This document shows positions 5,829 through 23,810 of a DNA stretch of 64,000 nt, piece by piece. Position numbers and translations under genes: made by a program. Source of the stretch: a virus; the IMG/VR virus record IMGVR_UViG_3300028844_006431, positions 1 to 64,000 of that record. The stretch is one strand, 5' to 3'. Within the stretch, counting starts at the first letter, position 1. Each line of letters opens with the position of its first letter. The notes under the pieces were generated by a model, which worked only from the letters and a program-made list of their open reading frames with translations, ran no database searches and was not told the DNA's origin.

Positions 5829-8537
5829 TTAAAACTGGATTGAGATTTTAAGATCCTCTGTCTGATTTTGCGATCTTGACACCATTGAGCGATTCTCAAC
5901 ATACAAAATATGTCCAGAACCTGGCATCATACCTGGCTCTTCAGCAAGGTCATCAGCTAGTTTTGAGGTTCCCCAAATCGGTTCATTTTTAACGCTATGT
6001 TCAGTTATCGACTGAATCTTCAAAGGAGAACCATTTCCTTGGAGAACAGTGTAGAAATCTCCTCTTGGCTTAATTACACGAATCTTCTTATTGATGCGGT
6101 CATGGTCAACAAGTTTTGCTGTTGCGATGACGTCACCGTCAGCATACGCATATTGTGATCCATCAGGCTTCATTCGTGTAGCAGATAACCAAAGTGAATT
6201 ATCACCCAAAATAGTATGTGCATTATTCGCAATAAATTGAATATCCATGTCTGGCTCAAAATTGACGATATCAACACCTACGACGTCACTTTCGATAAAT
6301 GTATCTGTATCTAAGTTAAATCGATAGCATTGGTCAGTTTTATATCCTCTGAACAATTGTGAGTATTCAGAAGGCTCCATCCACAAAGTATTCAATGCGA
6401 TTCTGGCATCTGGATCAGTATATCCACCAACATAAGAAGCAGCATTTGTATAACCCAAAGGATTTTTCAGAATACCAATCTTTCGGAATTCGTTACCTAC
6501 TGTGAACTCATCAGATTCAGTTCCTTCAAAACGAGCGTTAATCATAACGTTGAATCCACCAAGTTCTCCAACTGGATCAAATCCGTGTCCACCAACAGGA
6601 GGAATTGAAGCAAATAATTTAGGCTTTGACATTATTCTTGTTGCGTCTACTCCAGCATTGATACCTACATCATCTAAGACACCGGCACATACTTGATAAG
6701 TTGAATACGCAGGATCAAGCGCCAAAAACGTTGTTCCATCTGTTGTAGATGCATCATCAAGTTCTGCGATATTAGCAGCCAACTCACAGCTATCAATACG
6801 ATAATGATAGCGTCCTGGATTCAACACACGAACGTCTATAACTCTTCCGAGAGCGGCAGTTTGATAAGCTTTTTCAGGATTTGAATCCGCAATTTCTTGA
6901 CCAGAAAAGAATGGTTCGCAAATCGCAATTGCTTCAAAAGAATCAACAGTATCAGCTATGGTTGAAGATTGATGATTTGCTTTTACAATTACTTTAGGAT
7001 GAATTTCAATTGTGAGTCCAGTTTGTGAAGCAGTATCAAGTAATGGATCAATACCTTTTTTCTTTGAAAGTGCCTGATCATAATGAGATTCTCCTACATA
7101 TTTTTCATAAACAGCCGTATCACACTTCAATTCGAGTTTTAGTCCATTCCAAGCTACATCTGTGATTTCCCAAGCAATTGATCCATAACGGTCTTGCATA
7201 TATTCGTCAGCAAGATTATTTGGCAAACCTTCACGAATCCAAACTGAATATCCTCTCATAATCAAACCGAGAGCAGTGGCAGCATCGCCACCAGCTGAGT
7301 CAAATATTCTCTGAAGATACCCTAATTTTGTATTATCATTCGTACCAGGATCACCAATTTCAAATTGATTTTTATTACAGGCAGTGTTCACATAACTGAC
7401 TGCTACGTTAGCATCTGGCCAATGACATCCTACTTTGTCATCCACAAGGTCATTCACTGTAAATTTCACAAATTCCGTTCCTGCGGTATGATCCAAATCC
7501 ATTTGAACATTCTCAAATGCCACCTGAAAGAATCCACATCCACCACCAGTAATTTCATATCCAAGAACAGTTCCATCTGACTTTTCTACAGGTGCTTTAT
7601 CTACAAGCACATTCATAATCGCACCCGGACGAGCATTCTCTTCCATGTAATATTGATCTGTATAATCAATTGGTCGTTCACCATTTTCTTTACGAACGGT
7701 TCGAACAGGAATATAAGAAGTTGTTACAAATTTGAGTGCTTCACCGGCATCAATTGTATAATAATATTTCCATTGATAGCCATCGTTAAATTCATTACCG
7801 ATTGTCATAAAATCTTCAGACAATCCAGACTCTGTAATTGTAGTTTGCGGTTCTCGGAAAGAATTATGATTCCAAACATAAAGGTTGTCATCAGAATCTT
7901 TATAGGTACCATCCGCAGGAGTTACTGATGACAAATCCATTGTTGCGGGATCATGAGCATACAGTTGAAAACGACCAATTCCTTGCTTCAAACACTTATA
8001 AACACGGAATCTTTCGTTTACAGTATGAATTAGAATATCATCATCAAAAAGATTATCAGCACGGTCATCGTATCCATCATATCGCATACCGATTTTCCAG
8101 TTTCTTACACCTTCCTGGATTTCATCGGCACGTTCTCGTTTGATTACATGAGAAACTTCCTTTGCTGATACTTTTTTAGCAGCAATCATATCATCCCAGT
8201 GATTGAAATGAGAATCTTTCATACTATCAACAGGAAATGGTGGAGCGTTCTCATTAATATTTGGATTGGGAACACCGTCTGGGGTATCATAAGCATTCCA
8301 AGCTGATACACGACCAATAAACAAATACATTTGGTCGTCAAGAGCATAGAAAGGAATTTTGTTTCCGTCTCCGGCCGAAAGAGCAGCACCAAGCGAAGGT
8401 TCTCCAGTGGCAGGATCAACGTTCATATTCGCTAAAGGAATGTATCCACCTACACCATGTTCTGTTTTTTCCTCAAAGCTTTCTTTAAATTGCTTTGCGT
8501 TACTTACACGAAAAGTAGTATGCACTAATGCGGGCAT
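5829..8537 (-). CDS. gp8: Baseplate wedge protein gp8, enlarged
   Basis: A 902-residue protein with both ends like T4 gp8. The N-terminal part has MYLFIGRVSAWN and APPFPVDS, as in gp8's FIxFGRxxPW...PPYPTDS, then FRVYKCLKQ and YQWKYYYTI strands. The C-terminus is GHILYVENRSMVSRSQNQTE, paralleling gp8's MIYMENR...QTEEI. gp8 is a dimeric wedge component of the contractile-tail baseplate. T4 gp8 is 334 residues, so more than 500 residues are inserted between the conserved ends. It follows the gp7-position gene, as in T4, and has an AAGGAG ribosome site. It is the last gene of the leftward baseplate block. Confidence 0.8.
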   Translation of the reverse strand: MPALVHTTFRVSNAKQFKESFEEKTEHGVGGYIPLANMNVDPATGEPSLGAALSAGDGNKIPFYALDDQMYLFIGRVSAWNAYDTPDGVPNPNINENAPPFPVDSMKDSHFNHWDDMIAAKKVSAKEVSHVIKRERADEIQEGVRNWKIGMRYDGYDDRADNLFDDDILIHTVNERFRVYKCLKQGIGRFQLYAHDPATMDLSSVTPADGTYKDSDDNLYVWNHNSFREPQTTITESGLSEDFMTIGNEFNDGYQWKYYYTIDAGEALKFVTTSYIPVRTVRKENGERPIDYTDQYYMEENARPGAIMNVLVDKAPVEKSDGTVLGYEITGGGCGFFQVAFENVQMDLDHTAGTEFVKFTVNDLVDDKVGCHWPDANVAVSYVNTACNKNQFEIGDPGTNDNTKLGYLQRIFDSAGGDAATALGLIMRGYSVWIREGLPNNLADEYMQDRYGSIAWEITDVAWNGLKLELKCDTAVYEKYVGESHYDQALSKKKGIDPLLDTASQTGLTIEIHPKVIVKANHQSSTIADTVDSFEAIAICEPFFSGQEIADSNPEKAYQTAALGRVIDVRVLNPGRYHYRIDSCELAANIAELDDASTTDGTTFLALDPAYSTYQVCAGVLDDVGINAGVDATRIMSKPKLFASIPPVGGHGFDPVGELGGFNVMINARFEGTESDEFTVGNEFRKIGILKNPLGYTNAASYVGGYTDPDARIALNTLWMEPSEYSQLFRGYKTDQCYRFNLDTDTFIESDVVGVDIVNFEPDMDIQFIANNAHTILGDNSLWLSATRMKPDGSQYAYADGDVIATAKLVDHDRINKKIRVIKPRGDFYTVLQGNGSPLKIQSITEHSVKNEPIWGTSKLADDLAEEPGMMPGSGHILYVENRSMVSRSQNQTEDLKISIQF

Positions 8538-8567: not shown

Positions 8568-11500
8568 TTAAACAAAACACTCAGACTTTGTATTAGCATA
8601 CATCGGATAAGCAATTCCTCTAGAACTTTCCAAAAACTCTACTTCTTGGATGCTTGCTTCAAAATCTGTAACAAATGTATTTAGTTTAGAAGTTTCCCAT
8701 AAATAACCTTCCAACCTACCAGTTTTCATCTGTAAATTCGTGTTTGTAAATTTTCTCCAATCGTTTTTTAAACTCTTTGCTTTAAATCGTTTATTATTCA
8801 TCTTATATATATCAACGTCAAGATATGGTCCCAACATTGAAGAAATTAAGAAATCATCACCTAAAAGCATTGTAGTATTTATATTACTTATTTTACACTC
8901 AGAAATTTGAAAAGGAGATTCGACATTTTCTTCCAAATTCAAAGAAGTCATGATTGCGGTATTTGAATTTACACCCGATGTATATTCATATCCACCATCT
9001 TTATAATTTTTCTGACGGAACTTTTTAATTTCAAACATCTGTTCTGTCAAAGAATGAACCGATCCACCTTTCAAATGTGTTCGTATTGAATCAGTAATTT
9101 CAAAAGTATCCATTCGGTCTAAAATATATTCATTCAATACATTATGGTCAATTCTTTTTTCAGTATCAATCATACGATCGGCATTCTTTACTTGATTCAA
9201 AAATTCAAATACATATTCTTTCTCAGCAATTTCTCCTGAACCATCAACAAAGTTTGCTTCTTTTTCGAGTGTTGTTTGAACTTCTTTGAGTTTTGTTTTA
9301 AGAATATCCGATACTTTATCACCATCTTCATTCAATTCAAACTCATTATACATCGCAAATGTAAAGTGTGATGAGGCATCAACAGTGCGATTTGATTTCT
9401 TGACATCATAAGAAGTTTTCTTGACTAATTCACGATGAGTGATTGGTTGATCTAAAAACTCTTGTGTAATTTTTTCATGTAAGTTGATTACATTTTCTTC
9501 AACTTTTAAATCATCAATTTTGTTAAACTCAACAAAAGTTTCACCCGCATATATTCCAGAATCAATTAAATTTGTATGATGATTAAGCAATACAAACTCG
9601 GAAGCCTCAACAAATGGTGAAGCTAAAGGATTCATTACATGTGAATCATCGGAAAGGTCTCTTGGTATTGAAATTGCTTGTTGGCTTTCATAATTTGTTT
9701 TAACTGTTCTCGTAATTTCACCATATTCTTGAACAAGGCCAAATTTCAAATAGTCTTCAATGCGTTGAGTGTTGAATCCTATAATTAATTCATTACCACG
9801 GATAATAAATCGATCTGAAATATGATCTTTTTCTGTAAAGATTTGATTGAATTCACCATGAACTTCAGTTCCAGCTTCTAAGAAAGTTCCATTTGGTAAG
9901 TATAAAGTTGTATCAATTGAATAATAAGGTTGAATATTTTGCTGAGGTATAATTGTTTGCGGACTATCATCAACATACTTAGACGCCGCATCTTTATAAT
10001 GAGAATAAAACTGTGGATTGTATGTAATTTCAAACATACTTTTGGCGCCTACCGAAGGTATATGCTCACGATTATTCACCGCTATTTTTGCAAGTAAATA
10101 ATCTCCAATCTGATGATCAATAATATCAGTTCCATATATTCTACCATCAAGAGAAATATATTGATTGCGGTCAAAGATATTCACATCACCATAAATCAAA
10201 GTTCTTGGTAAAGGAATATCTGAAGTAGCATCAAGAACAGTTGTATTGGCAAAATATAATGTAGTATCAATTGAATAGAAAGGTTGTATATCTTTAAATG
10301 CTAAAGCATCTTCATGCTCATCAACATACTTATCTTTAGCATCGTAGTAGTGGGCATATAACTGAGGCTTATAGGTAATTTCAGGTTCATTTTTAGCAGA
10401 GACAGAGGGAATTGCTTCACCTCCCCACTCTGTAATTGGTAAACCAAACATATCCCCAGATATAGGATAATCAAGTCGATTATTTTTGATCTTATCACTC
10501 AGAGCAAAAACTTTCCAACTATCATAAATGTTGACATCTTCAATCACTTTTACAGCAGCATCCCAAGACTGAACAGTTTGTTCAAAGAAGGTTGTATTTC
10601 CATCATTCCAAATCATTTCTGGCATATAATAATCTTGTATATCACGATTATGATAATTATCAAAATTTTCATCTACATATTTACTCTTTGAATCTGTGTA
10701 ATTATAATATAGTTGAGGTTTATAATCAATTTCAACTTGAGGTAGAACTCTCACTCCAGGTAAAGTATCGGTCGCCCAATCTCTCAAAACCATACTCCAC
10801 ATACCACCGGTCAACTGACGGTCAAGTAATTGAAAATCAATAATGTCAGCCAAACCAAAGTTACGATGTGAATCAAGAATTTTATTTTCTTTTTCAATGT
10901 TAGTTCTTATATAAACTTCTTTTGAAGATGTAGCATCTAAGAAAGTTGTATTGGGAAAATAAACAATTGTGTCTTGTATATAATAATCTTTTACATCAAA
11001 AGAAAAGTTGGTTCCTTCAAAATTTTCATCAACATATTGATCTTCAACATTCTTACCATAATGCCAGTATAATTGAGGTGAATATTCAAATTCAGTTTGT
11101 GGGTGACATTGAACAGAAGGTATAGTATCACCTCCCCAGTCTCTCAAACGAATTGCTATTTTCATAAACTCTTTGATATTTCTTTTCAACCAGCGATGAT
11201 TGAAAATATCAAATAAAGCAAATGATGTATTTTTATTTACAACGTCGACAACACCTTCTAATTGATCAACTTTATAAACTTCTCTTGAAGCCGAGCCATC
11301 TAAGAAAGTTGTATTTGGGAAATATATAATTTGATCAGCATTATATACAGGTAGTTGATATCCTTTTAAGTTTTCAGCTTCTTCATTTATTTGAGCATTT
11401 ATTTCAATTTCAGTTTGAGGAATTACAAGGGCTCCTGGTAAACCATCTTTAGTATATTCAACAAGTCTTTGTGGAATAAATGCGTTTCGAATCAAATCAT

Positions 11501-14500
11501 TAAGTAAATCATATTCAACAAAATCATCAAGCATGAAAAGTAAATTACGATTTGGTATCGCAAGTTTAGTTTTTACATCAAAAACACTTTCAGTGAAAAC
11601 AGGAGTTGCGTCTAAGAAAGTTGTATTAGGGAAATAGATCGTAGTTGTAGTTTCATATCCAAAATCTACAACATAATTATTTGCTGTGAAAATTTTAGGT
11701 TGAGAAAGAACTGAAACGCTCGGTATTTTATCACCAAAGTAATCCGTAAACTTACTGTTGAACCAATCATAAATTCTTGTTCTTATCCAGGGCGCAATGA
11801 TATCTGTTGTTTGAAAATAAGGATTACGGTCTTCAACATGGAAATGTTCAATCGTATAATTATAAATGTCATCATTAATTGTACCATCAATAAAGTTTGT
11901 ATTTCCTTCCAATCCTGTTTCAACATATTCAACCATTGGAATTTTCTTTTCCATTGGTGCCAAATAAATTGTCGGTTCATGAAAAGCAGAAACTGAAGGT
12001 ATTGTATCTCCAAGCCAAGACTTGCTTCGTGCTTTCAACCAGGGATCAAATACCTTGTTAGTCCAGTCTGTATATTCATTACGAATTTGTTTATCATAAT
12101 CAAAATATAACCAACGATTTCCAATATGCTTTTCAAGGTCATAATCTAATACTGTTTTTATATTATTTGCTGTATCTGTTTTATGTTTTTCATAAGAAAA
12201 GACAGGATCAAGTCCACCACTAATCAAAGTACTTTTGATTTTTATATTTTCTCTTTTGAGTTCATTATCCCAGTGAAACCAATTTTCAAGAAGAGGCATT
12301 TCAATTTTAGCCATGAAATTTGTTTTATCCCAAAAAGTAAGTCCTTTATGTGGATAAAAATATCCTCGGTCAAAAGCATATTCTTTACTATCAAATACAA
12401 ATGGAGTATCACCAAATAAAGGTAAAGGTGGTCTTTCACCATAAGCAAATACATGACTCAATAGTTTTCTGTCAAAAATAAATTCATCTGGCATCCATAT
12501 TGTTGCATCAACAGGCATTTCAAATTCACGTTCTTGTTCAACTACCCAATAACTTGAAGATGATCCATCAAGATTACTTAACTCAACCATAAATTCTTGA
12601 CGATTATATAAATCATATTGACTATAATCAAATGTATAATTTCTTTGGTAAGTAGCAACAGCATTCTGAACATTCATATTGTCAGCAGCAAAATAAATAT
12701 TTGTTTCAATGTTTGGATCAACTACCAACTCACCTAAAACATAAAAATCCTTTTCATCAAAAACAGCATTGAGTTTAAAATCATCTACATTTGTAATGTT
12801 AATAAAATCTACTTTGATTGCTACTTCAAGTTCACCCGGCTGATAATAAATTGTATCTAAATCAAAGAAGGAATGATTTTCATCAAACTTGGCATATATT
12901 GAGTTAAAGCCATAGGGAAACATTAATTTACCATGATGACCACTTCTTTGAAATGCGTTGATTTTGGTATCTAAAATTAAGATACCATCACGATTTCTTG
13001 GATCATTCAAAGCATCAGGATCCATTGCTAATGGATTGATGTTTATTCTTTCGTCTAATGGATAATGTTCAATTCTTCTTGTTTCAACAAAAGAAGTTAC
13101 TTCAGGTAATTCATAATGGCTAATGTTATAAAGATTTACCTTTGAATATGTAATGGGTCTGCCATTGATATCTGTTTTTTCATTTGCTTTTATCCATGTC
13201 TCAAAAGATAATAGAGATACTTTATTGCGGTCAAATTGTTCAAATCCAAGAATTGTAACATTGGCACTTTCAGCTTCGTGAACAAGTACACTATAATTTC
13301 TTTGCCAATCATGAAATAAATGTTGGTCGGTGTTTATAATTGAAGCACTCACATTTGCTTGATTATATTGAACATTTTCAATTACAATTTTTTGAATTGG
13401 CCGATTATGATTATTTGCATCCAATTCAAAATAATTTTTTGACAGATCAAGGGTGAGTTGAGATTCTGGCACACCCTTTACATGTACAGGAGCGCATTTG
13501 AAACTTTCATCAATATCAACAGTGGAAAATTGAAAGGACTCAAATCCTAAGTTTGAGAAATATGTGTTGGTTGTATTGGAGTAATGAAAGATTTCTCTTC
13601 CATAATCAACAGTTATTTCTCGATCTTGTAAGAGTGAAATGTTAACGTCAGGGCGGGCAAGAATAACATGTTCAAGTGACGGGGACATTGTTTTGGGCAA
13701 GGCCACTATCGATGGCACCAGGCCGTAGGGAACCCCGGTGGCGCTCTTCTGGTCTCTTATCAAAAAAAAAATTTCGGTCGCTGCCACCTCCGGATAAGGA
13801 TTGCGAATTCTATGATAATGGTCTTGAGAATAGTTTAATGAATCAGTATCAAGAGTGGTTGTAGTCAATGTATAATTTGATTCATTTGCTGTATTCCCAT
13901 GAAGAGCCAATCCTTCTGGATTTTGATAATCAAAAACAATTGGCTCCAAATGAACGGGCAATATAAAATTTTGATTATATTCAAGATTAACTGAAAAGTT
14001 TTCTTCACTTACTCGTTTACTTTCATCAATGTATATTTCCGGTAAAGTATAACTGTTATCAATAATATAGTGTAATTCAAGTTCATCCATATCAACTTCA
14101 GTAGCCTTTGTCGGCATCTTAGCAAAGCCTTCAAAGTTATTAATCATCACACAAAATAAAGGTCCTGAATATCTACTTTTGATTATCTTTACAGTATTTT
14201 TGAGTGGAACTTTACCTGCGATGGGACTTTTACCAGCTTCAACTATTTTATCATCTACAATTGCTATACCATCAGGAGTTCTTGAAATATTGATGTCACT
14301 TGATTTTTTCTTATATAAAAGGTCATGTGTATCACTTAAAGCTAGTTCTTGATCTGAGATCACCGTAATTGAAAAGGTTGAACCATCAGTATATGTGTAG
14401 ATATTTCCCTCAAAATGAGTTGAATAGACTTCAGAAGGTTCTGTATATTTTACAATACCATCGGATCGCACTTCAGCAACTTTGACACCATACTCTAAAT

Positions 14501-17500
14501 TTTGAAATTGAACCCAGCCGTTTTCTGTTAGAATTTCAGCATCAGGTAAATAAGCACCTTGTTTTGACAGTGAGTTACCAGTTACAACTGGCATGAAAGC
14601 GGTTTGTCTGGCAAAACTAAATCCAATATTTCCACTATCTAAAGTTAAGTCTGAAGAACTAAAATCAGCGGCTGAGGTGAAAATTGATTGTGAGAAATCA
14701 GCCAATGAATTTGCCATTTGAATATCATCTGAATCAAATGTAGCACCTATTGTATTCGCAGATGTAATTGGTGATAAAAATGGATCTCTCGCAATGATCA
14801 TACCACCAATGTTTGTTCCTGTAATATATGTTTTGAGGTCATCAATCCAAACACGATGTTGGTGTATTGTCTTACCTGCCATTGTTTCAATTGGACCAGA
14901 ACGTGTTCCAATTGTTTGTGAGATCCAGTTTGCTTTGTCTTCTACATTAATCAGTTTTGTCCAAGATTGTGTTGCCATCAATAGGTCATAGACAGCACTA
15001 TTGGTTGAAATATGAGGCTCTGTTAAGTCACTCATATAATCATCAAATTCTTCATCAAGACTACGATGTGTATTCGCAATTAGAACTTGCTCTTCAGATA
15101 CAGTTCTCTGAACAATTGAGCGCCTTGAATTATTACCTATTCTTGTACCTAATCCTACATCACGATTATCGAATTTCCAAGGTCTACGATTATTTGACCA
15201 ATACGGGGGTATTACAGTATCATCAATAAAATACTTGAAAGCTTGATAGATATCAGCTATACCATCAACATCAATTTCAGTATATTCCTTTGCTTTGACA
15301 ACTTCATACTGCATTAGATTGGTTTCAATTTCATTCTGTAATATTTGATTAATAGTGAGTTCTCCAAATCTTTCCCATTCTTGTTCCATATGAGGATAAA
15401 TTACAGAATGGCAGTAGCCTTGTGATTCAATTTCAATCTCAGGCATTTCAAAATTCATAAATCGAAGCCTAAATTCAGAATCAAAACGATTGCGAATGAA
15501 AGCTAAGAAACCTGCTGGATGAAGTTCGTCAAGAAGAAGCGGTTCGATTGCTGTTGCTGGTATTTTTGTAATGATTTCATAAGAATACCATTGATAATAA
15601 TAATTGTCAAAGAAATACTTATCAGAAGATAGCATACTTTGATTGTTACGATATTCTTCATAAGGACGGTGATGAACGTCAAACACAGGTTCAACTTCAA
15701 ACGTCAAACCATGTTGGCAACGAAGATAGTTTGGTTCTTTTAGTGGATTACTAAAATTCTTACTTTCGGGCGCATTGAAAAAGAAAGGTGTTAAGTTTCG
15801 TCCCTTTTGAAGAGCCGGCTCTAAGACCTCAAGACCTGCTACACCATCACCTAAATGTGCCGTGATTTTTGCGGTATCACTGAGAGGTTGTACATTTACT
15901 AAGTCTACAATTTTACAGGTACGGACAGCCCCACCAGTATCTGTAAAAGTAAACATCGCATCATTTTCTAAATCGGCCATTGACCTTTGAGAAGCGAACC
16001 TTTTAGCAATATGATCTTCTGATAAAAGACCTGGAAGTAGAATCATACTATTTGTAACAGTCACATCACCAATATAATAAGCATCATTGTTTAGATTTGT
16101 TCCAGCACCAGATAATTCAATTGTTGTGTTTGTAACAATGAAATCATTATTCGCATCACTATCATCTAATAACAAATCAAAGACAAGCATTGTCTGAGCT
16201 TCTTTAATTGATGAATTTACATAAGCTGGTGGTGCAAATTTATAATCAAGTCCAGAATCTTCAAATGTGATCTCTTGAATCTGTCCAACTTCATAAGCTG
16301 GGAACATTGAAGCAGGAAGAATTTGATTAAGTGTAGAATCTTTAGCAGGTTGTGCAGCATTGTGAAATAAAGGATCATCTAATTTTACATGAGCAAATTT
16401 TGATAACTCATGATTTTTTATTTTATTGAATTGACTATTGAAAAAAGTTGTCAGAGATGGATCTTTATAGATTGCTGAAACATGTGCTTTAGCAAATTTT
16501 GTCGCTCCAGTAAAATCATTTTCAAAAACGACTTCATCTCCAACTGCATAACAAATACCAGGATCTTCAATCGTCATCTTAGTGACTGAATATTCTTCAA
16601 GTTTTGTAACTCTTGCCCGCCCATCAGCAAATCTGAATTCATCACCAACTTCATGTCCGATACCACCATCAGCTATTTTTAAATCAGTAACTGAAGTGTC
16701 GATGAATACTTCGGTTACTTTTATTCCCGTTGTCATATCAAATATATCGACTTTTTCACCAGCAATAAATTTTCCATTCAAATACACAAGGTCCATGTAC
16801 ATGCTGATTATACCATTATTTGAAGCCGAAATAATTTTACGACATATTGCTGATGCTTTTGATGATGTACCGTATATTCTTTTTTGGGAAAGTTGAGATG
16901 GTGTGTCGTGGTTTTCAATCGCAACTAAATTTTCACGATAATAACCACTATCAGATAATTTTAAAATGTCAACTTTGGGAAAATATAAGTCAATTGGCTC
17001 ATCAAAGAATATTCGAAAAAACCAATAATATGAATTTTCTGTTCCTCTTTTTTTGTAATAGTCAAGAATTTTTTTCGTAAGAGTTTTAGGATCTAGTTTA
17101 CGAAAAATACTATGGTCTAAAGAAACATTTTTATGAAAATATTTTTTGAAAAGAGTAAGAGTGGTTTGATAAACTGAATTTTCTTCAATGTCTGCAATGT
17201 ATTGATAGATATTTTTATACAGAGAACGTATAAAATATATTTCACCTGAAGTACCATTTACAATTACTTCATCTTTATAGAATTGATTATCTTTAGTTAA
17301 GTAATCAAAATAAACTCGATCTGGTGTAACTGTTTTTACAACTCCCTTTGCTTTTGAAAGAGAACCATAGATAAAATCACCCTCTTGAACATTCTTTATT
17401 TGGTCAAGAACCAAAACTGATGATTCAAGAAAGTTATAATATTCTCGGACAAACTCGGCAAATTGTGGGTATTGCTCGAGAAAGTAACCAGGCAGTTGGC

Positions 17501-17528
17501 TCTCGATTAGATCTTTAGGAGTTGTCAT
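8568..17528 (-). CDS. Giant baseplate protein in the gp7 position
   Basis: A 2986-residue protein between gp6 and gp8, the place of T4 gp7 (1032 residues), so most likely the wedge protein gp7 or its functional counterpart. The N-terminus (residues 1-200, with a PQFAEFVREYYNFLE segment and many Tyr/Phe) looks like the entry domain of large baseplate proteins in marine T4-like phages. Residues about 990-1145 form a degenerate Hint domain. Residues about 1840-2600 contain about seven repeats with the marks DTIPSV, PQLY-HY, KYVDE and YFPNTTFLDA. Its ATG overlaps the gp6 stop (ATGA). A GC-rich island at about 13675-13795 stands out from the AT-rich surroundings. The gp7 identity rests on gene order more than on sequence. 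Confidence 0.6.
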   Translation of the reverse strand: MTTPKDLIESQLPGYFLEQYPQFAEFVREYYNFLESSVLVLDQIKNVQEGDFIYGSLSKAKGVVKTVTPDRVYFDYLTKDNQFYKDEVIVNGTSGEIYFIRSLYKNIYQYIADIEENSVYQTTLTLFKKYFHKNVSLDHSIFRKLDPKTLTKKILDYYKKRGTENSYYWFFRIFFDEPIDLYFPKVDILKLSDSGYYRENLVAIENHDTPSQLSQKRIYGTSSKASAICRKIISASNNGIISMYMDLVYLNGKFIAGEKVDIFDMTTGIKVTEVFIDTSVTDLKIADGGIGHEVGDEFRFADGRARVTKLEEYSVTKMTIEDPGICYAVGDEVVFENDFTGATKFAKAHVSAIYKDPSLTTFFNSQFNKIKNHELSKFAHVKLDDPLFHNAAQPAKDSTLNQILPASMFPAYEVGQIQEITFEDSGLDYKFAPPAYVNSSIKEAQTMLVFDLLLDDSDANNDFIVTNTTIELSGAGTNLNNDAYYIGDVTVTNSMILLPGLLSEDHIAKRFASQRSMADLENDAMFTFTDTGGAVRTCKIVDLVNVQPLSDTAKITAHLGDGVAGLEVLEPALQKGRNLTPFFFNAPESKNFSNPLKEPNYLRCQHGLTFEVEPVFDVHHRPYEEYRNNQSMLSSDKYFFDNYYYQWYSYEIITKIPATAIEPLLLDELHPAGFLAFIRNRFDSEFRLRFMNFEMPEIEIESQGYCHSVIYPHMEQEWERFGELTINQILQNEIETNLMQYEVVKAKEYTEIDVDGIADIYQAFKYFIDDTVIPPYWSNNRRPWKFDNRDVGLGTRIGNNSRRSIVQRTVSEEQVLIANTHRSLDEEFDDYMSDLTEPHISTNSAVYDLLMATQSWTKLINVEDKANWISQTIGTRSGPIETMAGKTIHQHRVWIDDLKTYITGTNIGGMIIARDPFLSPITSANTIGATFDSDDIQMANSLADFSQSIFTSAADFSSSDLTLDSGNIGFSFARQTAFMPVVTGNSLSKQGAYLPDAEILTENGWVQFQNLEYGVKVAEVRSDGIVKYTEPSEVYSTHFEGNIYTYTDGSTFSITVISDQELALSDTHDLLYKKKSSDINISRTPDGIAIVDDKIVEAGKSPIAGKVPLKNTVKIIKSRYSGPLFCVMINNFEGFAKMPTKATEVDMDELELHYIIDNSYTLPEIYIDESKRVSEENFSVNLEYNQNFILPVHLEPIVFDYQNPEGLALHGNTANESNYTLTTTTLDTDSLNYSQDHYHRIRNPYPEVAATEIFFLIRDQKSATGVPYGLVPSIVALPKTMSPSLEHVILARPDVNISLLQDREITVDYGREIFHYSNTTNTYFSNLGFESFQFSTVDIDESFKCAPVHVKGVPESQLTLDLSKNYFELDANNHNRPIQKIVIENVQYNQANVSASIINTDQHLFHDWQRNYSVLVHEAESANVTILGFEQFDRNKVSLLSFETWIKANEKTDINGRPITYSKVNLYNISHYELPEVTSFVETRRIEHYPLDERININPLAMDPDALNDPRNRDGILILDTKINAFQRSGHHGKLMFPYGFNSIYAKFDENHSFFDLDTIYYQPGELEVAIKVDFINITNVDDFKLNAVFDEKDFYVLGELVVDPNIETNIYFAADNMNVQNAVATYQRNYTFDYSQYDLYNRQEFMVELSNLDGSSSSYWVVEQEREFEMPVDATIWMPDEFIFDRKLLSHVFAYGERPPLPLFGDTPFVFDSKEYAFDRGYFYPHKGLTFWDKTNFMAKIEMPLLENWFHWDNELKRENIKIKSTLISGGLDPVFSYEKHKTDTANNIKTVLDYDLEKHIGNRWLYFDYDKQIRNEYTDWTNKVFDPWLKARSKSWLGDTIPSVSAFHEPTIYLAPMEKKIPMVEYVETGLEGNTNFIDGTINDDIYNYTIEHFHVEDRNPYFQTTDIIAPWIRTRIYDWFNSKFTDYFGDKIPSVSVLSQPKIFTANNYVVDFGYETTTTIYFPNTTFLDATPVFTESVFDVKTKLAIPNRNLLFMLDDFVEYDLLNDLIRNAFIPQRLVEYTKDGLPGALVIPQTEIEINAQINEEAENLKGYQLPVYNADQIIYFPNTTFLDGSASREVYKVDQLEGVVDVVNKNTSFALFDIFNHRWLKRNIKEFMKIAIRLRDWGGDTIPSVQCHPQTEFEYSPQLYWHYGKNVEDQYVDENFEGTNFSFDVKDYYIQDTIVYFPNTTFLDATSSKEVYIRTNIEKENKILDSHRNFGLADIIDFQLLDRQLTGGMWSMVLRDWATDTLPGVRVLPQVEIDYKPQLYYNYTDSKSKYVDENFDNYHNRDIQDYYMPEMIWNDGNTTFFEQTVQSWDAAVKVIEDVNIYDSWKVFALSDKIKNNRLDYPISGDMFGLPITEWGGEAIPSVSAKNEPEITYKPQLYAHYYDAKDKYVDEHEDALAFKDIQPFYSIDTTLYFANTTVLDATSDIPLPRTLIYGDVNIFDRNQYISLDGRIYGTDIIDHQIGDYLLAKIAVNNREHIPSVGAKSMFEITYNPQFYSHYKDAASKYVDDSPQTIIPQQNIQPYYSIDTTLYLPNGTFLEAGTEVHGEFNQIFTEKDHISDRFIIRGNELIIGFNTQRIEDYLKFGLVQEYGEITRTVKTNYESQQAISIPRDLSDDSHVMNPLASPFVEASEFVLLNHHTNLIDSGIYAGETFVEFNKIDDLKVEENVINLHEKITQEFLDQPITHRELVKKTSYDVKKSNRTVDASSHFTFAMYNEFELNEDGDKVSDILKTKLKEVQTTLEKEANFVDGSGEIAEKEYVFEFLNQVKNADRMIDTEKRIDHNVLNEYILDRMDTFEITDSIRTHLKGGSVHSLTEQMFEIKKFRQKNYKDGGYEYTSGVNSNTAIMTSLNLEENVESPFQISECKISNINTTMLLGDDFLISSMLGPYLDVDIYKMNNKRFKAKSLKNDWRKFTNTNLQMKTGRLEGYLWETSKLNTFVTDFEASIQEVEFLESSRGIAYPMYANTKSECFV
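9720..12010 (-). repeat. Seven tandem ~92-121-residue protein repeats inside the gp7-position gene
   Basis: The encoded protein repeats the order (G)DTIPSV, (E)xxYxPQLYxHY, KYVDE, D(I/T)QxYYxxDT, YFPNTTFLDAT, then a variable helix-rich segment. Anchors for the IPSV-type motif fall near 11998, 11722, 11437, 11121, 10758, 10405 and 10051, giving periods of about 277 to 364 bases. The left copies are the more divergent; copies four to seven are the most alike. These look like diverged duplications of a fibre-like beta module, not recent exact repeats. Confidence 0.7.
14090..14560 (-). other. Degenerate Hint (intein-like) domain within the gp7-position protein
   Basis: Residues about 991-1146 follow the Hint fold order. 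The entry is AYLPDAEILTENGW, where a splicing Hint would have Cys; here it is Ala992. Then come GVKVAEV, STHFEGNIYTY, a block B-like LSDTHDLLY that keeps His1068, and YSGPLFCVMINNFEG in the place of block F. The terminal His-Asn and the following nucleophile are absent, and there is no homing-endonuclease insert. Known: such catalytically dead Hint domains occur in structural proteins of T4-like marine phages. Inferred: it serves as a structural module and does not splice. Confidence 0.65.
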
Positions 17529-19411
17529 GAGTCAAATAAACTTGCTTTTTCGAGTGATGATGATGTTGCTAATCTGTCTACAAATGGTCTTGGATCAACA
17601 ATCACATCATCAATTGTAATTGAAAAAATTTGATCTTTTTTAGGAACTAATAAATATTCGCTTGTACCAAATTCAAAAATCATTTCAGTTGAATTGTTTT
17701 GAACAAAGCTTGGAGAAAAACCTTCAAGTTCTAAAATACCCGATTCATAATCTACTTTACCAATGCCTTTATGTAAAATTTTTGTTGTACCATTTAAATC
17801 AAAAGCGATATCTACATTATATTTTTCGCCTTTTCGAACTGCTCTTGTAGCGTATTGAGAAAGTTCTGCTTCTTCTTCAACTTTTTCTCCACTTTCTTTC
17901 AAATAACAATTTGATATAGGATTTCCTTTAGCATCATTATAAACAAATTTTGTTGTTGCAAGAGTTTCTTTATCAATTCTACCATTGAAATCAATATTAT
18001 AATACTTGCCAACACCTATACGAATATCTCGTTTTTGATACACTCTTATTTTTACAGTTGTACCCATAAAATATTCATTCAAGTCATTTATTTCATTTGT
18101 TAAATTGGCTAATTGAAATGACCTATTAAATTTTAACAAATTTTCTTTAGCATACGAAATAGTCTTATTTTTTACTAAATCAATTACTTCAAGTTGACTC
18201 ATGTTTAAGTGGACTGAATTATAAATCACTCGAACATCCAATTTTAAATAAACATATTCTGGATCTACAATTTTAGGAACAATTGTAATTACATTTAACT
18301 GTTCAAGACGACTAATAATAAATTCTTTTTCATCAATGGTGAGTAACCCACGATTTTTTGGTTTGACTGCACAATAAACAGTTCCATACATAGGTGGTGT
18401 ATTTTTTTCTCCGCCCCATACAGCAAGAGAATCAATAAAGGGAAAGTATCGAAGTATTTGAATTTCAGTATCTCTTTCTGTCACTGAACGATTTTGACTT
18501 AAAAATAATCTTCGTGAATTGTGTCTTATTGTTTCAATGTTTTCTTCTTCTGTACCTTGCGAAGAAAATTGCTTTGTTACAATTACATAAGTAGTAGGTA
18601 AGATTGCCCGATCTGCTATATCAAAAGTAACACAACCATTACCTTTTGAGCCGGTTGTAATAATATACTCAGCCTCAATAATTTCATTATTTTCAGCTTC
18701 TCTTCCTAGAACACCATCACCAAATATAATTTGATATTTTTGATCATAATCTTGTTCAATATAAAAAACTTTTGACTCTTTATTTAGAAGTGTAATATCA
18801 TAAACTTGTTTATATTGTTCTCTTTTAGCAAAACGATCTTTTTTGATATAAATGTCTAAATTGTCTAGGTCAATATCAGGACTTTCTAATTTATATTTTT
18901 TCTCAAGTAATAAATTGTTGATTGTAATTTGCTGTTTTACAAACTGACCTTGAACTAAATCCAGGTCAGCGGTAAATTGATTTGACCTGTGAAGAGTAAC
19001 TGTATTCCATGTCATGAATGGATATACTTCACCTGTGCTATTTTTACCATAGAATAACGTATATCTTGGTATTGTAATCGCACCTGATAAATTTTGAGTA
19101 TTTGTTAGACGAAATGTTATATCTGCAATTGCTGCTTTTTTTGAGTTAGCAGTATAACCCATTTGTTTGGCATGAGATACCGCATTTTTTCTTTTTTGAG
19201 CGGTATCTAAAAACATTTCACTTGCTACTTGATTTAAGTAAAATGCTGTATATTGTGTATTGTATGAAAGAAGGTCAACAAGAAAATTTAAACCTGAAGC
19301 TTCAAAATCATAGTTTTTGAATTCAGAATTATTTTTGACAAAGGATAAAAAATTTTCACGAATCTCGTTAAAATCAAGTTCATTAATATTTTCTGGTGGT
19401 ATCTTTGCCAT
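17525..19411 (-). CDS. gp6: Baseplate wedge protein gp6 (baseplate J-like)
   Basis: A 628-residue protein close in length to T4 gp6 (660). The N-terminus reads FEASGLNFLVDLLSYNTQY followed by FYLNQVASEMFLDTAQKR, the hallmark opening of gp6/baseplate-J proteins in T4-like phages, and the middle has the strand-rich J-like core (YQIIFGDGVLGREAENNE). gp6 forms the iris-like ring that joins the baseplate wedges. Its ATG directly abuts the gp25 stop (TAAATG), and its own stop overlaps the next start (ATGA), the gene 25-6-7 order expected in this phage group. Confidence 0.92.
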   Translation of the reverse strand: MAKIPPENINELDFNEIRENFLSFVKNNSEFKNYDFEASGLNFLVDLLSYNTQYTAFYLNQVASEMFLDTAQKRKNAVSHAKQMGYTANSKKAAIADITFRLTNTQNLSGAITIPRYTLFYGKNSTGEVYPFMTWNTVTLHRSNQFTADLDLVQGQFVKQQITINNLLLEKKYKLESPDIDLDNLDIYIKKDRFAKREQYKQVYDITLLNKESKVFYIEQDYDQKYQIIFGDGVLGREAENNEIIEAEYIITTGSKGNGCVTFDIADRAILPTTYVIVTKQFSSQGTEEENIETIRHNSRRLFLSQNRSVTERDTEIQILRYFPFIDSLAVWGGEKNTPPMYGTVYCAVKPKNRGLLTIDEKEFIISRLEQLNVITIVPKIVDPEYVYLKLDVRVIYNSVHLNMSQLEVIDLVKNKTISYAKENLLKFNRSFQLANLTNEINDLNEYFMGTTVKIRVYQKRDIRIGVGKYYNIDFNGRIDKETLATTKFVYNDAKGNPISNCYLKESGEKVEEEAELSQYATRAVRKGEKYNVDIAFDLNGTTKILHKGIGKVDYESGILELEGFSPSFVQNNSTEMIFEFGTSEYLLVPKKDQIFSITIDDVIVDPRPFVDRLATSSSLEKASLFDS

Positions 19412-19810: not shown

Positions 19811-19818
19811 TATTTATC
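19811..19818 (-). promoter_or_regulatory. Possible late promoter box (GATAAATA) before gp25
   Basis: On the minus strand GATAAATA sits about 22 bases before the gp25 ATG and overlaps the stop codon of the upstream gene. It is one mismatch from the T4 late -10 element. Its intergenic position supports it, but the octamer is not rare in DNA this AT-rich. Confidence 0.35.
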
Positions 19819-22800
19819 TATCTTATCCGGTAGAAATAAATTTCACTATCAAGAATTTGAAAAATTAAAGATTTCATATCAACTTCTGGTTTAGCAAATA
19901 AAGTTTTTTGAATTTGCTGCTGTTGTGGTGTAAGAAATTCTTGAGGTGGTTCATAACCTATGAGTATATAAGGTAATAATTGTTGGTCTTCTGATTTCTT
20001 AACTTCAAAAATTTCTGATAGAAATTTCTTTTTCTTACGATTTCCAAAATTGAAAACTGTATCGTGTTCAGCATTGACTTCAATTGCCTTTGTAAAGGTA
20101 TAGCCCTTTTCTTTAAAGAACACACCAAGATGAATGTTTATATTATTTAGTTTAGGCAATTCTCTGATGTTTAGTCCCGCCGCAGAAGAATGAGGTATAA
20201 CTGACATTGTAAATTCAAAACGATAAGTATATGTTTTTGCAACACCCGCAGACCATTTTGGTAGTGTCAAAACATTTTTACTTCTTACACCATGTAAATT
20301 CTTAAGTAACGGATTTTTCAAACGAAATTCATAATGAGGTGAAGAAGAAATTACCTCAAAGTAATCTGGATTTGTTGACTTATCAATTACATTTTCAAAA
20401 TTTGTATCACTTACACAACGGAAAGGTTCCCATTCAATTTTGATTGGTTCTGGCTTTGCTATGTTTTGTGAAGATGGATTCATATTTTTTGCTTGTTTAT
20501 CTAACGCACCTTTTAAAGTATCTAATGTATTATTAGGTAACATTGCGGATGCTCTACCTACATCAATTTGTTCAAGAGAAGGTGCTGTGATTGGATTACC
20601 ATCTTCATCAATCAAGCGCCAAGCATCAGCAAGCCATCTTACTGGATAGACATGCATTCCTTTTGGTAAATAACTTAAAAGAACCATTGAGAATCCAAAT
20701 TCACTTGAATACTTACGTTCTACTTTTGCAATTTCATTGTAGATTTTTCCTGTCCAATATTTTACTTTATCTTCTTTTGTATTTTTTTCATGCTGTGCTG
20801 TTTCAACAATTCCTGCATTGTCTAGATTGGCAAAAAGTCCGCTACCAATTTCAATAGGGAAAAAAGCAAGTTCCATCGCATCACTGATTTGTTCCGCTAC
20901 TGCTTCCTTTAACTTCAATGATTGTTCAATGACAGCCTCTCTTGCTCCGTAACCTTCATAAGGATTTGTAATACCAGGACGAATTTGACCATCAGGTGGC
21001 ATCAAAGGATCTACTTGACTTTTTTCATTGATCGCCTTTATTCGTTCATCATGATTTTGTTGTTGAAGATATAATTGGTCAATATCTAATTTGATTCGAT
21101 TTGCTTCCTCAGGATCAATTTTACGGATCTTCCCAAGATATTTTTGAACAGAAGAAAGTGAACTTGGTCTGAATCCTTTTTTTGGTGGTTTGGAATGGCC
21201 ATTTGTATTTGTCAAATCAGCGGCAAGTTTATCATATCCTTCAATACCCTCTTCTCGGCAATACTTACCCCATACAGTTCCTTCAAATTCAATACTCAAT
21301 AATAAAATGTTAAGAAGGTCGTCAATAATATCGATCAATTCAAGAAGCTTATCACGAATATCTCTTAAAACTCGAATCAATTGTTTCAACATTGTATCAT
21401 TCGGAGTAAACATATTCTCAAATGATTTCACTTTTTTCTGAAGTGCTTTAATTGTGGTTGTTGTTCCAATTAAATCTGAGAAATTTACACCAAACCAATT
21501 ACCATAACCTCCTGGATTAAAGTTCATTAGATTTTCATCCATAATAAAACCATCACCTAAAAATTCAAAGGTTGAGGTTGATGATCCACCCCCTGCTGCG
21601 CTACCTTTGCGATAAAGATGAACATAATCTCCAGAAACAAAATGATCTCTGGACATAGGAGGTCTGCGATATGAAAATTCGTAAACATAATTTTGCTGAG
21701 AAAGAGCATTTGGTAAATTTACTTTATCATTTTTATAAATGTCCCAAATATCTTTCGTGAAAGCAGTTTTATAATAAGTTTCAAGATGATTGCGATATAA
21801 ATGATTTTTATTTTTGATAGGATAACTACGATGAAAATAAGACATATAAGTTGAATTCTCATCATCAGTGGGTGGAACCATACCTGTTGTATTCACCATC
21901 TTACTTTCAAAATTTTTCAATTGCTTTTGCTTTACAGCAACTGATTCATGAAGACCTTTAAAATGTTCATTGAAAATTACTAAAGCTTCTTCTTTGAAGG
22001 TTTTTTCCATAATTTCAATATCTGAAATATATTCATCAATTTTCTTTTGTCTTTCTTCATTTGCCAAATTGGGTGGTGTGATTCGAAATATATCGGTTCT
22101 GCTTAGATAATCATCTCTTATAGAACTTGACATATTTTTTAATTCTGCTCCTATGCTCATCAACTGTACATACTGAGGATGATCCTTAGTGAGAAAAATA
22201 CCACTGGTGGCGTTCTCTACTTCAATCAGAGGGGCGTTTTCTGAAGTGTCTACTACTACCACATCACCTGTGACCGGATCAACGGTGGTGATAGATGTGA
22301 GACTTTTCGCTTTGAGATTCTTAACTTTCTCATATTGTTCACGAAATTGTTTTCTTTTTTCAATCAAAGTAAGAGTGTTATTTAATCGTGAATCTTTTGT
22401 CCAGGTGACACCAAAACTTGGTACTGAAGAAGATGATTCGCTTGCTGTTTCCACAAGGTCACTATTATACTTATTCATAAACTCTTCAACAACATCTAAG
22501 CTTGGATCTGTTAAGTTTTCAAGAATTGATTCAGGATTTGAAAAATCAACACCTCTTGCGAATTCAGCAGCAGCATATTGTGAAGCATAGAAAGTGTGTT
22601 CAATTTTAAGTTGAGCTAAATTTTCTTTTTTCAAACGATACAGATTACTTTTACGAATAAGTTCATTTTCAATATCTTGAATAATTTCATTTACACGATC
22701 GGGATTATGTTTTACATCATCTATTGAAGCATCTAACGAATCAATTTCATCTTGAACATTCGCTTTCAATCTTTCAAAACGATCTTCAGGCATAAATTCG

Positions 22801-23810
22801 AGAGGATCGGCTTTGACCATAATAATATCAGTTAGTTCATCATCAATTGGTATTTGTTTTCTTGTATACGCATCCACCTTTTCATATCTTACTTTTGAAG
22901 GATTTGTTACTTGAACTCCCTTCATTTGATAATTTGTAAGAATTTTTACTTTGCGTTGTTCATGTCGAAAGAAGAGAGAATCAAAATCTTCATGAAGCGC
23001 ACCTAAACTTTCAATTTGAAATAAATTTGCTAAACTTGCTATTGAATCAATAAACTTACGAATATTTGGCATATTCGTATTTGAGTCTATACTGAAATAT
23101 AAAAAGATTGCATCATATACACCAAGAGGTCTTGAAAGATTTTGAATTGACTTCTCAAAATCAATGTAATCGGTTTTCATTTCATCAAGAGAACTTTTAG
23201 CTCCTGGTATCAATTGTTCGAGAAGTGAACGTCCTTTATTGTCATGATGAACTCTTGTATATTTTTCGATTTTATTTTGAAGTTTTTTACCGCTTTCAAT
23301 GAGTCTTTCGTCTAGATCTTTTACATAAGGAAGTGCATAAGGAACATAAGGATCAGCAGAATCATAAAACTTTTTATAAACATTTTCTGCTTGCTCATCT
23401 AGTGATGTAGTTGGATAACCTTTATATGCTCGTTCTGTAAAATTTGGAGGAACAACTAATACATGCATACCTAAACGAAGATATGCATCAAGAGCATTAT
23501 AAACCAGGTTGGAGAGATATGTCATTACCATCGACATAAAATTCGGCAGCAAAAACATAAAGTCATTAATCAAAGTCAAAGTAGTAATTGCAAAATCAAA
23601 ATTGTTTACAACTAAATTTCTTATGTTCTCTAGATATTCTTTTGAATCTTCAATAAATTCTTTATTACTGCCAGTAAGGCCTGCGGCTAAGTGGTTGATT
23701 TGACGCCACTCACCTTCACCTGTCGGATTTGCAAACTCATCGCTTTTCGATAATTGATTTCCAAATTCAGTAAGAGTCCTACCAATTGGATATCTTTGAC
23801 CATCACTCAT
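19818..23810 (-). CDS. Large baseplate/tail structural protein, unrecognised
   Basis: A 1330-residue protein upstream of gp25 in the leftward tail block. I do not recognise a family. The first 150 residues include a hydrophobic pair of helices (about 75-115, FMFLLPNFMSMVMTYL). Residues about 320-520 and 590-650 are rich in Lys/Glu and look like coiled coil. A Gly/Ser stretch (AAGGGSSTSTFEF) follows near residue 740, another helical region lies at about 790-850, and the C-terminal about 200 residues are strand-rich. The coupled start (ATGA with a 50-residue ORF) and the setting among baseplate genes argue for a virion component. There is no lysozyme or peptidase motif. Confidence 0.6.
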   Translation of the reverse strand: MSDGQRYPIGRTLTEFGNQLSKSDEFANPTGEGEWRQINHLAAGLTGSNKEFIEDSKEYLENIRNLVVNNFDFAITTLTLINDFMFLLPNFMSMVMTYLSNLVYNALDAYLRLGMHVLVVPPNFTERAYKGYPTTSLDEQAENVYKKFYDSADPYVPYALPYVKDLDERLIESGKKLQNKIEKYTRVHHDNKGRSLLEQLIPGAKSSLDEMKTDYIDFEKSIQNLSRPLGVYDAIFLYFSIDSNTNMPNIRKFIDSIASLANLFQIESLGALHEDFDSLFFRHEQRKVKILTNYQMKGVQVTNPSKVRYEKVDAYTRKQIPIDDELTDIIMVKADPLEFMPEDRFERLKANVQDEIDSLDASIDDVKHNPDRVNEIIQDIENELIRKSNLYRLKKENLAQLKIEHTFYASQYAAAEFARGVDFSNPESILENLTDPSLDVVEEFMNKYNSDLVETASESSSSVPSFGVTWTKDSRLNNTLTLIEKRKQFREQYEKVKNLKAKSLTSITTVDPVTGDVVVVDTSENAPLIEVENATSGIFLTKDHPQYVQLMSIGAELKNMSSSIRDDYLSRTDIFRITPPNLANEERQKKIDEYISDIEIMEKTFKEEALVIFNEHFKGLHESVAVKQKQLKNFESKMVNTTGMVPPTDDENSTYMSYFHRSYPIKNKNHLYRNHLETYYKTAFTKDIWDIYKNDKVNLPNALSQQNYVYEFSYRRPPMSRDHFVSGDYVHLYRKGSAAGGGSSTSTFEFLGDGFIMDENLMNFNPGGYGNWFGVNFSDLIGTTTTIKALQKKVKSFENMFTPNDTMLKQLIRVLRDIRDKLLELIDIIDDLLNILLLSIEFEGTVWGKYCREEGIEGYDKLAADLTNTNGHSKPPKKGFRPSSLSSVQKYLGKIRKIDPEEANRIKLDIDQLYLQQQNHDERIKAINEKSQVDPLMPPDGQIRPGITNPYEGYGAREAVIEQSLKLKEAVAEQISDAMELAFFPIEIGSGLFANLDNAGIVETAQHEKNTKEDKVKYWTGKIYNEIAKVERKYSSEFGFSMVLLSYLPKGMHVYPVRWLADAWRLIDEDGNPITAPSLEQIDVGRASAMLPNNTLDTLKGALDKQAKNMNPSSQNIAKPEPIKIEWEPFRCVSDTNFENVIDKSTNPDYFEVISSSPHYEFRLKNPLLKNLHGVRSKNVLTLPKWSAGVAKTYTYRFEFTMSVIPHSSAAGLNIRELPKLNNINIHLGVFFKEKGYTFTKAIEVNAEHDTVFNFGNRKKKKFLSEIFEVKKSEDQQLLPYILIGYEPPQEFLTPQQQQIQKTLFAKPEVDMKSLIFQILDSEIYFYRIR

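Follow-up and report, generated by a model that had tools for sequence, protein, structure and literature searches.

A degenerate Hint domain, probably a fossil intein, in the gp7-like baseplate wedge protein of an uncultured T4-like phage

The stretch of DNA analysed here (the window, 64,000 nucleotides) belongs to a virus record of 84,110 bases and encodes a very long gp7-like baseplate wedge protein that carries a Hint domain related to intein splicing domains, in which the residues of canonical splicing have been replaced. We consider it probable that this domain is a fossil intein, catalytically dead and retained in gp7 as an inert insert whose fold is under selection. An intein is expected either to maintain itself by homing or to disappear, and inactive ones should harm the protein that hosts them; to our knowledge, in-frame dead inteins inside intact, apparently essential proteins have seldom been described. 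The course of events that we propose is that a phage intein with the family pattern 'C...TPNH...VYC...GN|S/T', closest to the inteins of NrdA, entered the variable region of gp7 in the ancestor of a small phage clade. Its chemistry would then have been lost, with replacement of Cys1 and the C-terminal Asn and, most likely, of the block-B Thr and His, and the dead domain would remain part of the mature protein, an inert insert rich in beta structure. The fold would now be what selection sees, possibly with a role as spacer or surface module within the baseplate wedge. The gene, its neighbours and the domain are located in the window as follows.

5829..8537, minus strand: gp8-like baseplate wedge protein (PF09215 Phage-Gp8, 1e-8; PHROG 438, 4.2e-63)
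8568..17528, minus strand: gp7-like baseplate wedge protein of 2986 aa, which carries the domain (Pfam PF23786 Baseplate_wedge, 7.8e-10; PHROG 17744 baseplate wedge subunit, 1.9e-29)
14085..14567, minus strand: degenerate Hint (intein splicing) domain, residues ~988-1148 (intein profile domain E 5e-16; HHalign E ~2e-16; AlphaFold N-half; Foldseek)
17525..19411, minus strand: gp6-like baseplate wedge protein (PHROG 219, 1.8e-130)

The gp6 homologue lies upstream and the gp8 homologue downstream of the gp7-like ORF, an order identical to that of T4. Judged by both marks of membership, the family match and the gp6-gp7-gp8 order, the 2986-aa ORF is a gp7-like homologue of the T4 baseplate wedge protein from an uncultured T4-like phage, which gives a name to the structural protein in which a dead Hint domain had originally been predicted. 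The Pfam and PHROG matches are N-terminal, and searches of these two collections gave no family match for the C-terminal 1800 residues. Residues ~1-400 and ~605-800 align with other gp7s, and the Hint segment is found beyond them, in the variable part. The protein is unusually long, since its counterparts in Melnitz, Mosig and HTVC008M have 896, 874 and 1016 residues, respectively, and IMG/VR together with phage records gave 43 complete gp7-like ORFs, with a median of 875. Its distal part also contains at least five imperfect repeats with a YFPNTTFLDA-like motif (residues ~1964-2620; window 9669-11639, minus strand), which start at residues 1964, 2068, 2190, 2425 and 2542. Adjoining the baseplate genes there is, in addition, a 1330-residue ORF (19818-23810, minus strand) without a convincing Pfam or PHROG match. 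Another giant at the gp7 position was observed in Synechococcus phage S-SZBM1 (L014:8084-13959, plus strand), where the gene after gp6 is annotated as a virion structural protein of ~6600 residues.

The presence of a Hint domain at this place was borne out by several sequence comparisons. Residues 990-1067 matched, with a domain E of 5e-16 in HMMER, a profile made from 34 N-terminal splicing regions of other phages' inteins, none of them from the clade of the window, and HHalign gave E ~2e-16. Searching phage records by tblastn with a 221-aa region retrieved intein-bearing genes at E = 1e-7 (a staphylococcal phage nicotinamide phosphoribosyltransferase with an intein) and 5e-5 (a Vibrio phage 'hint domain protein' that is really NrdA with an intein). 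In the C-terminal half, the block-F strand Y1120-S-G-P-L-F-C1126-V is present, with Cys1126 aligned to the invariant block-F Cys; when the downstream region was shuffled 2000 times, a score as good was obtained once, and the motif occurs nowhere else among the 29,662 residues of the virus record. By these alignments the Hint segment is homologous to intein splicing domains; membership of the Hint/intein superfamily is certain for the N-half and comes through the shuffle test for block F, the evidence for the C-terminal part being the shorter. A Pfam scan of the isolated segment and a PF13403 search of the phage's own record returned no match, a PDB sequence search with the segment returned nothing useful, and PHROGs returned only a weak match to thymidylate synthase (0.0056), a family in which phage inteins also occur, as in the intein-containing ThyA of L136. 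The GC content of the domain is not distinct from that of the rest of gp7.

Regarding the predicted structure, AlphaFold run on an intein-containing alignment gave a pLDDT of ~80-87 at residues ~990-1062 and of ~80 at the block-F strand (~1112-1131), with low values elsewhere (mean 54.9). The top PDB matches of this model in Foldseek were inteins, bacterial intein-like (BIL) domains and hedgehog (best E 2.2e-4, for a model fed mostly an intein alignment), and its viral structure matches were mostly intein-bearing proteins. Since most sequences in that alignment were inteins, the model does not count as evidence independent of the homology; from three close relatives alone the pLDDT was 28.6. 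AlphaFold modelling thus supports only the N-half and the block-F strand of the Hint fold that had been predicted.

To establish which residues have been lost and which kept, we compared the domain with 37 relatives for Cys1 and block B, and with the 27 of them having a C-half for block F and the terminus, taking as conserved those columns shared by at least 85% of the relatives in the alignment. The positions concerned, all on the minus strand, are listed below.

14553..14555, minus strand: block A position 1, Ala992 in place of Cys1 (Cys in 37/37 relatives)
14349..14360, minus strand: block B equivalent in the preferred register, I1057-S-D-Q1060 in place of TPNH (ungapped alignment; family spacing 68)
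14325..14327, minus strand: His1068, the block-B His of the original prediction, 8 residues off the preferred register (HHalign alternative)
14184..14336, minus strand: middle loop, residues 1065-1115 (endonuclease site in most relatives; not conserved between lineages)
14151..14153, minus strand: Cys1126, the block-F (F:4) Cys, retained (Cys in 27/27 relatives; shuffle 1/2000)
14085..14093, minus strand: lost C-terminal Gly-Asn|+1 site, now Asp1146-Met1147-Asp1148 (block-F Cys-to-Asn/Gln spacing 21-22 in 27/27 relatives)
14052..14057, minus strand: Asn1158-Ser1159, the only candidate alternative C-terminal junction (spacing 32 vs 21-22, off by ~10)

Among the conserved columns, the block A Glu, Leu, Thr, Glu, Gly and Trp were kept, followed by a Val, a Pro, a Gly and the block-F Tyr and Cys. 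Those that changed are Cys1, now Ala992; the Thr behind the block-A Asp, now Ala; a Lys, now Val; in the preferred register the block-B Thr B:7 and His B:10, now Ile1057 and Gln1060; and, in the C-half, a Val, an Arg and the terminal Gly-Asn, now Ile, Lys and Asp1146-Met1147, respectively. Conserved columns unconnected with catalysis are therefore mostly kept, whereas Cys1, Thr B:7, His B:10 and the terminal Gly-Asn have all changed. Furthermore, endonuclease inserts are visible in relatives at the position of the middle loop and the domain of the window has no endonuclease. The two losses proposed at the outset, of the splicing Cys to Ala992 and of the C-terminal end, are thus confirmed, the latter by the Asp-Met-Asp that stands at the family spacing after the block-F Cys. 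On these two replacements, as read from the alignments, canonical splicing is excluded.

The suggestion that block B retains only His1068 is, on the other hand, probably a misalignment. The distance from Cys1 to the block-B His is 66-72 residues in 36 of the 37 relatives (mode 68); from Ala992 it is 68 to Gln1060 and 76 to His1068. HMMER and the family alignment put block B on I1057-S-D-Q1060, whereas HHalign and one MAFFT run preferred His1068, at the cost of an 8-9-residue gap in the hairpin. The equivalents of the block-B Thr and His are therefore probably Ile1057 and Gln1060, not His1068, according to these spacings.

Three splicing routes have been described for inteins (PMC3196547), and each was compared with the domain. 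For class 1, Ala992 stands where the N-terminal nucleophile should be Cys, Ser or Thr, the block-B TxxH is replaced by ISDQ at the family spacing and recovered as SDTH only with an 8-9-residue insertion, and DMD occupies the place of the C-terminal Asn/Gln plus Ser/Thr/Cys, the nearest Asn-Ser being 10 residues further on. Ala992 would fit class 2 (KlbA type), but in that class the other motifs are intact and a +1 nucleophile follows, and the domain has kept neither block B (in the preferred register) nor block G. The WCT signature of class 3 consists of Trp B:12, Cys F:4 and Thr G:5 (PMC3196547); in our reading of the alignment Cys1126 is present, B:12 is Leu in either register and G:5 is Val or Ile. 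Class 3, to which Ala at position 1 with a block-F Cys might point, was also rejected on the ground that this Cys occurs in 27/27 of the Cys1-bearing relatives with a C-half. None of the three routes is expected, because Cys1 is absent in either register and the class 3 signature is incomplete.

These same residues could be read as an atypical reactive intein, with Ser1065-D-T-His1068 as block B, Asp-Asn1158|Ser1159 as C-terminal junction and Cys1126 as nucleophile, cleaving or splicing like class 2 or class 3. The HHalign and MAFFT preference for His1068, the retained block-F Cys and an Asn-Ser pair that is identical in both related lineages would agree with this; Asn1158-Ser1159 was also set against GN|S in two MAFFT alignments, not in the fragment alignment. 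Both spacings, however, fall outside the family range (76 vs 66-72 and 32 vs 21-22), it is not uncommon for a stretch of a dozen residues to contain, by chance, an Asn with Ser/Thr after it, and neither the invariance of the block-F Cys in Cys1-bearing relatives nor the missing Trp and Thr (in either register) speaks for class 3, so that we regard a reactive domain as very unlikely. Equally unlikely, in our estimation, is a non-canonical self-cleavage (for example at Asp-Asn1158|Ser1159, with an altered active site containing Cys1126 and His1068) by which the giant gp7 would mature into two pieces, a wedge part and the C-terminal 1800 residues.

If the domain is dead, as we favour, the question is what has kept it. 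It had been argued that the frame remains open and that selection therefore keeps the fold. The frame is indeed intact across all gp7 in related contigs and the whole-gene dN/dS is 0.14 (window vs contig L010); the open frame is nonetheless no evidence of selection on the domain, because a stop or frameshift would remove the 1800 downstream residues. The part of the argument that stands, modestly, is the constraint on the core. In the comparison with L010, of only nine changes in the core (residues 992-1064 and 1116-1148, delimited by hand) 7 were silent and 2 replacing, against an expectation of 2.85 silent under the observed transition bias (P = 0.006; one comparison). The middle loop (1065-1115) showed 2 silent and 6 replacement changes, matching the neutral expectation, and the P value for the whole domain was 0.048. 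The gp7 flank before the domain is about as constrained as the core. A constrained core with a free loop is the pattern predicted for a maintained fold, to which it lends modest support. A functionless relic, kept in frame for no other reason than that an imprecise deletion would cost the protein its 1800 downstream residues, and tolerated as an insert exposed to solvent, is a possible but distinctly less probable account. It agrees with the location of the domain in a variable region past the conserved core of gp7 (no homology beyond about residue 800), with the neutral behaviour of the loop and with the very long branch of the domain described below; it does not predict the excess of silent changes in the core, nor the retention of scaffold columns when the catalytic ones are gone, although some upkeep of the fold may only reflect avoidance of misfolding. 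Co-option of the domain as a structural or assembly module, also part of the original prediction, is plausible and unproven, with a modest substitution bias behind it.

Concerning its origin, the nearest relatives of the domain are phage inteins with intact motifs, and the closest are those in NrdA. The maximum-likelihood tree groups it, with modest support, with the NrdA inteins (SH-aLRT 81-90, UFBoot 44-78), where its branch is very long, at 2.95 substitutions per site, and the best identity of its N-half, 35%, is to the NrdA intein in L101. Moreover, the phage's own nrdA (L140:9949-11805, plus strand; same record, outside the window) has an empty site, AYRQGK|TRKGS, that is occupied by an intein in relatives. 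The tree grouping, the best identity and the empty site make a donor of the NrdA type plausible, and we regard this sequence-based origin as such, not as proven. The residues KQG just ahead of the domain recall the N-extein of NrdA (YKQGE|C, YRQGK|C), a likeness of three residues, offset by one, that we do not count as evidence alone. The NrdA of the uncultured virus L101 (2964-6740, plus strand) was itself seen to have two intein-like insertions, the second of which (residues ~597-947) matches Pfam Intein_splicing and LAGLIDADG.

Scans with the domain, gp6, gp7 residues 401-985 and the gp7 C-part always returned the same three contigs, all of which carry the domain, one identical to the window and two ~96% identical. 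Of the other gp7-like ORFs, 43 complete and 24 partial (67 in all), none gave a Hint match, and no empty-site gp7 allele was found among the contigs scanned, the other gp7s not being alignable at the domain position. This last result would suit a Hint-like module that joined gp7 already inactive, as a shuffled structural domain, and was never an active intein there. Against this, a scan of viral contigs with a three-sequence alignment yielded 39 further loci that, where a family could be assigned, are mostly inteins in enzymes and terminases; the nearest relatives have all motif residues and no inactive structural Hint family was recovered, which makes such a module improbable and leaves decay of an intein within gp7 as our preferred explanation.

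Lastly, inactive inteins are already known (PMC3196547), as are decayed traces in phage nrdA (PMC3653736), and our search of one literature library brought up no baseplate protein reported to contain a dead Hint domain; what would be new here is an in-frame dead intein within an intact virion protein. The clean split between catalytic and scaffold residues makes it possible to ask whether the fold alone was retained, and the baseplate position of gp7 can be imaged, so that, if confirmed, this would be a testable case of a selfish splicing element turned structural insert. Phage NrdA inteins (L101; Vibrio phages 1.161.O and 424E50-1) resemble the domain in the best-matching block A (TEILTENGWV.F..L..GVKVA.V), in the common block-F motif Y.G..[YN]C and in an N-half 32-35% identical; unlike it, they have Cys1, TPNH/TPSH, a central insert, GN|T and a conserved enzyme site. 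BIL domains are likewise Hint domains in variable regions of non-conserved proteins, some without the C-terminal motif (PMC7765530), but they cleave at their own ends, whereas the domain of the window has no N-terminal nucleophile. In the intein pseudogene Arth_1007 of Arthrobacter FB24 the frame also remained open after essential residues were lost, including the block-B His, although that element falls in the class 3 clade, is flanked by only 66 aa and is not part of any known structural protein (PMC3196547). The nrdA intein traces of Listeria phages A511 and P100 also represent a decayed intein in a phage; there it survives as non-coding sequence between nrdA fragments, whereas the domain described here is in frame (PMC3653736).
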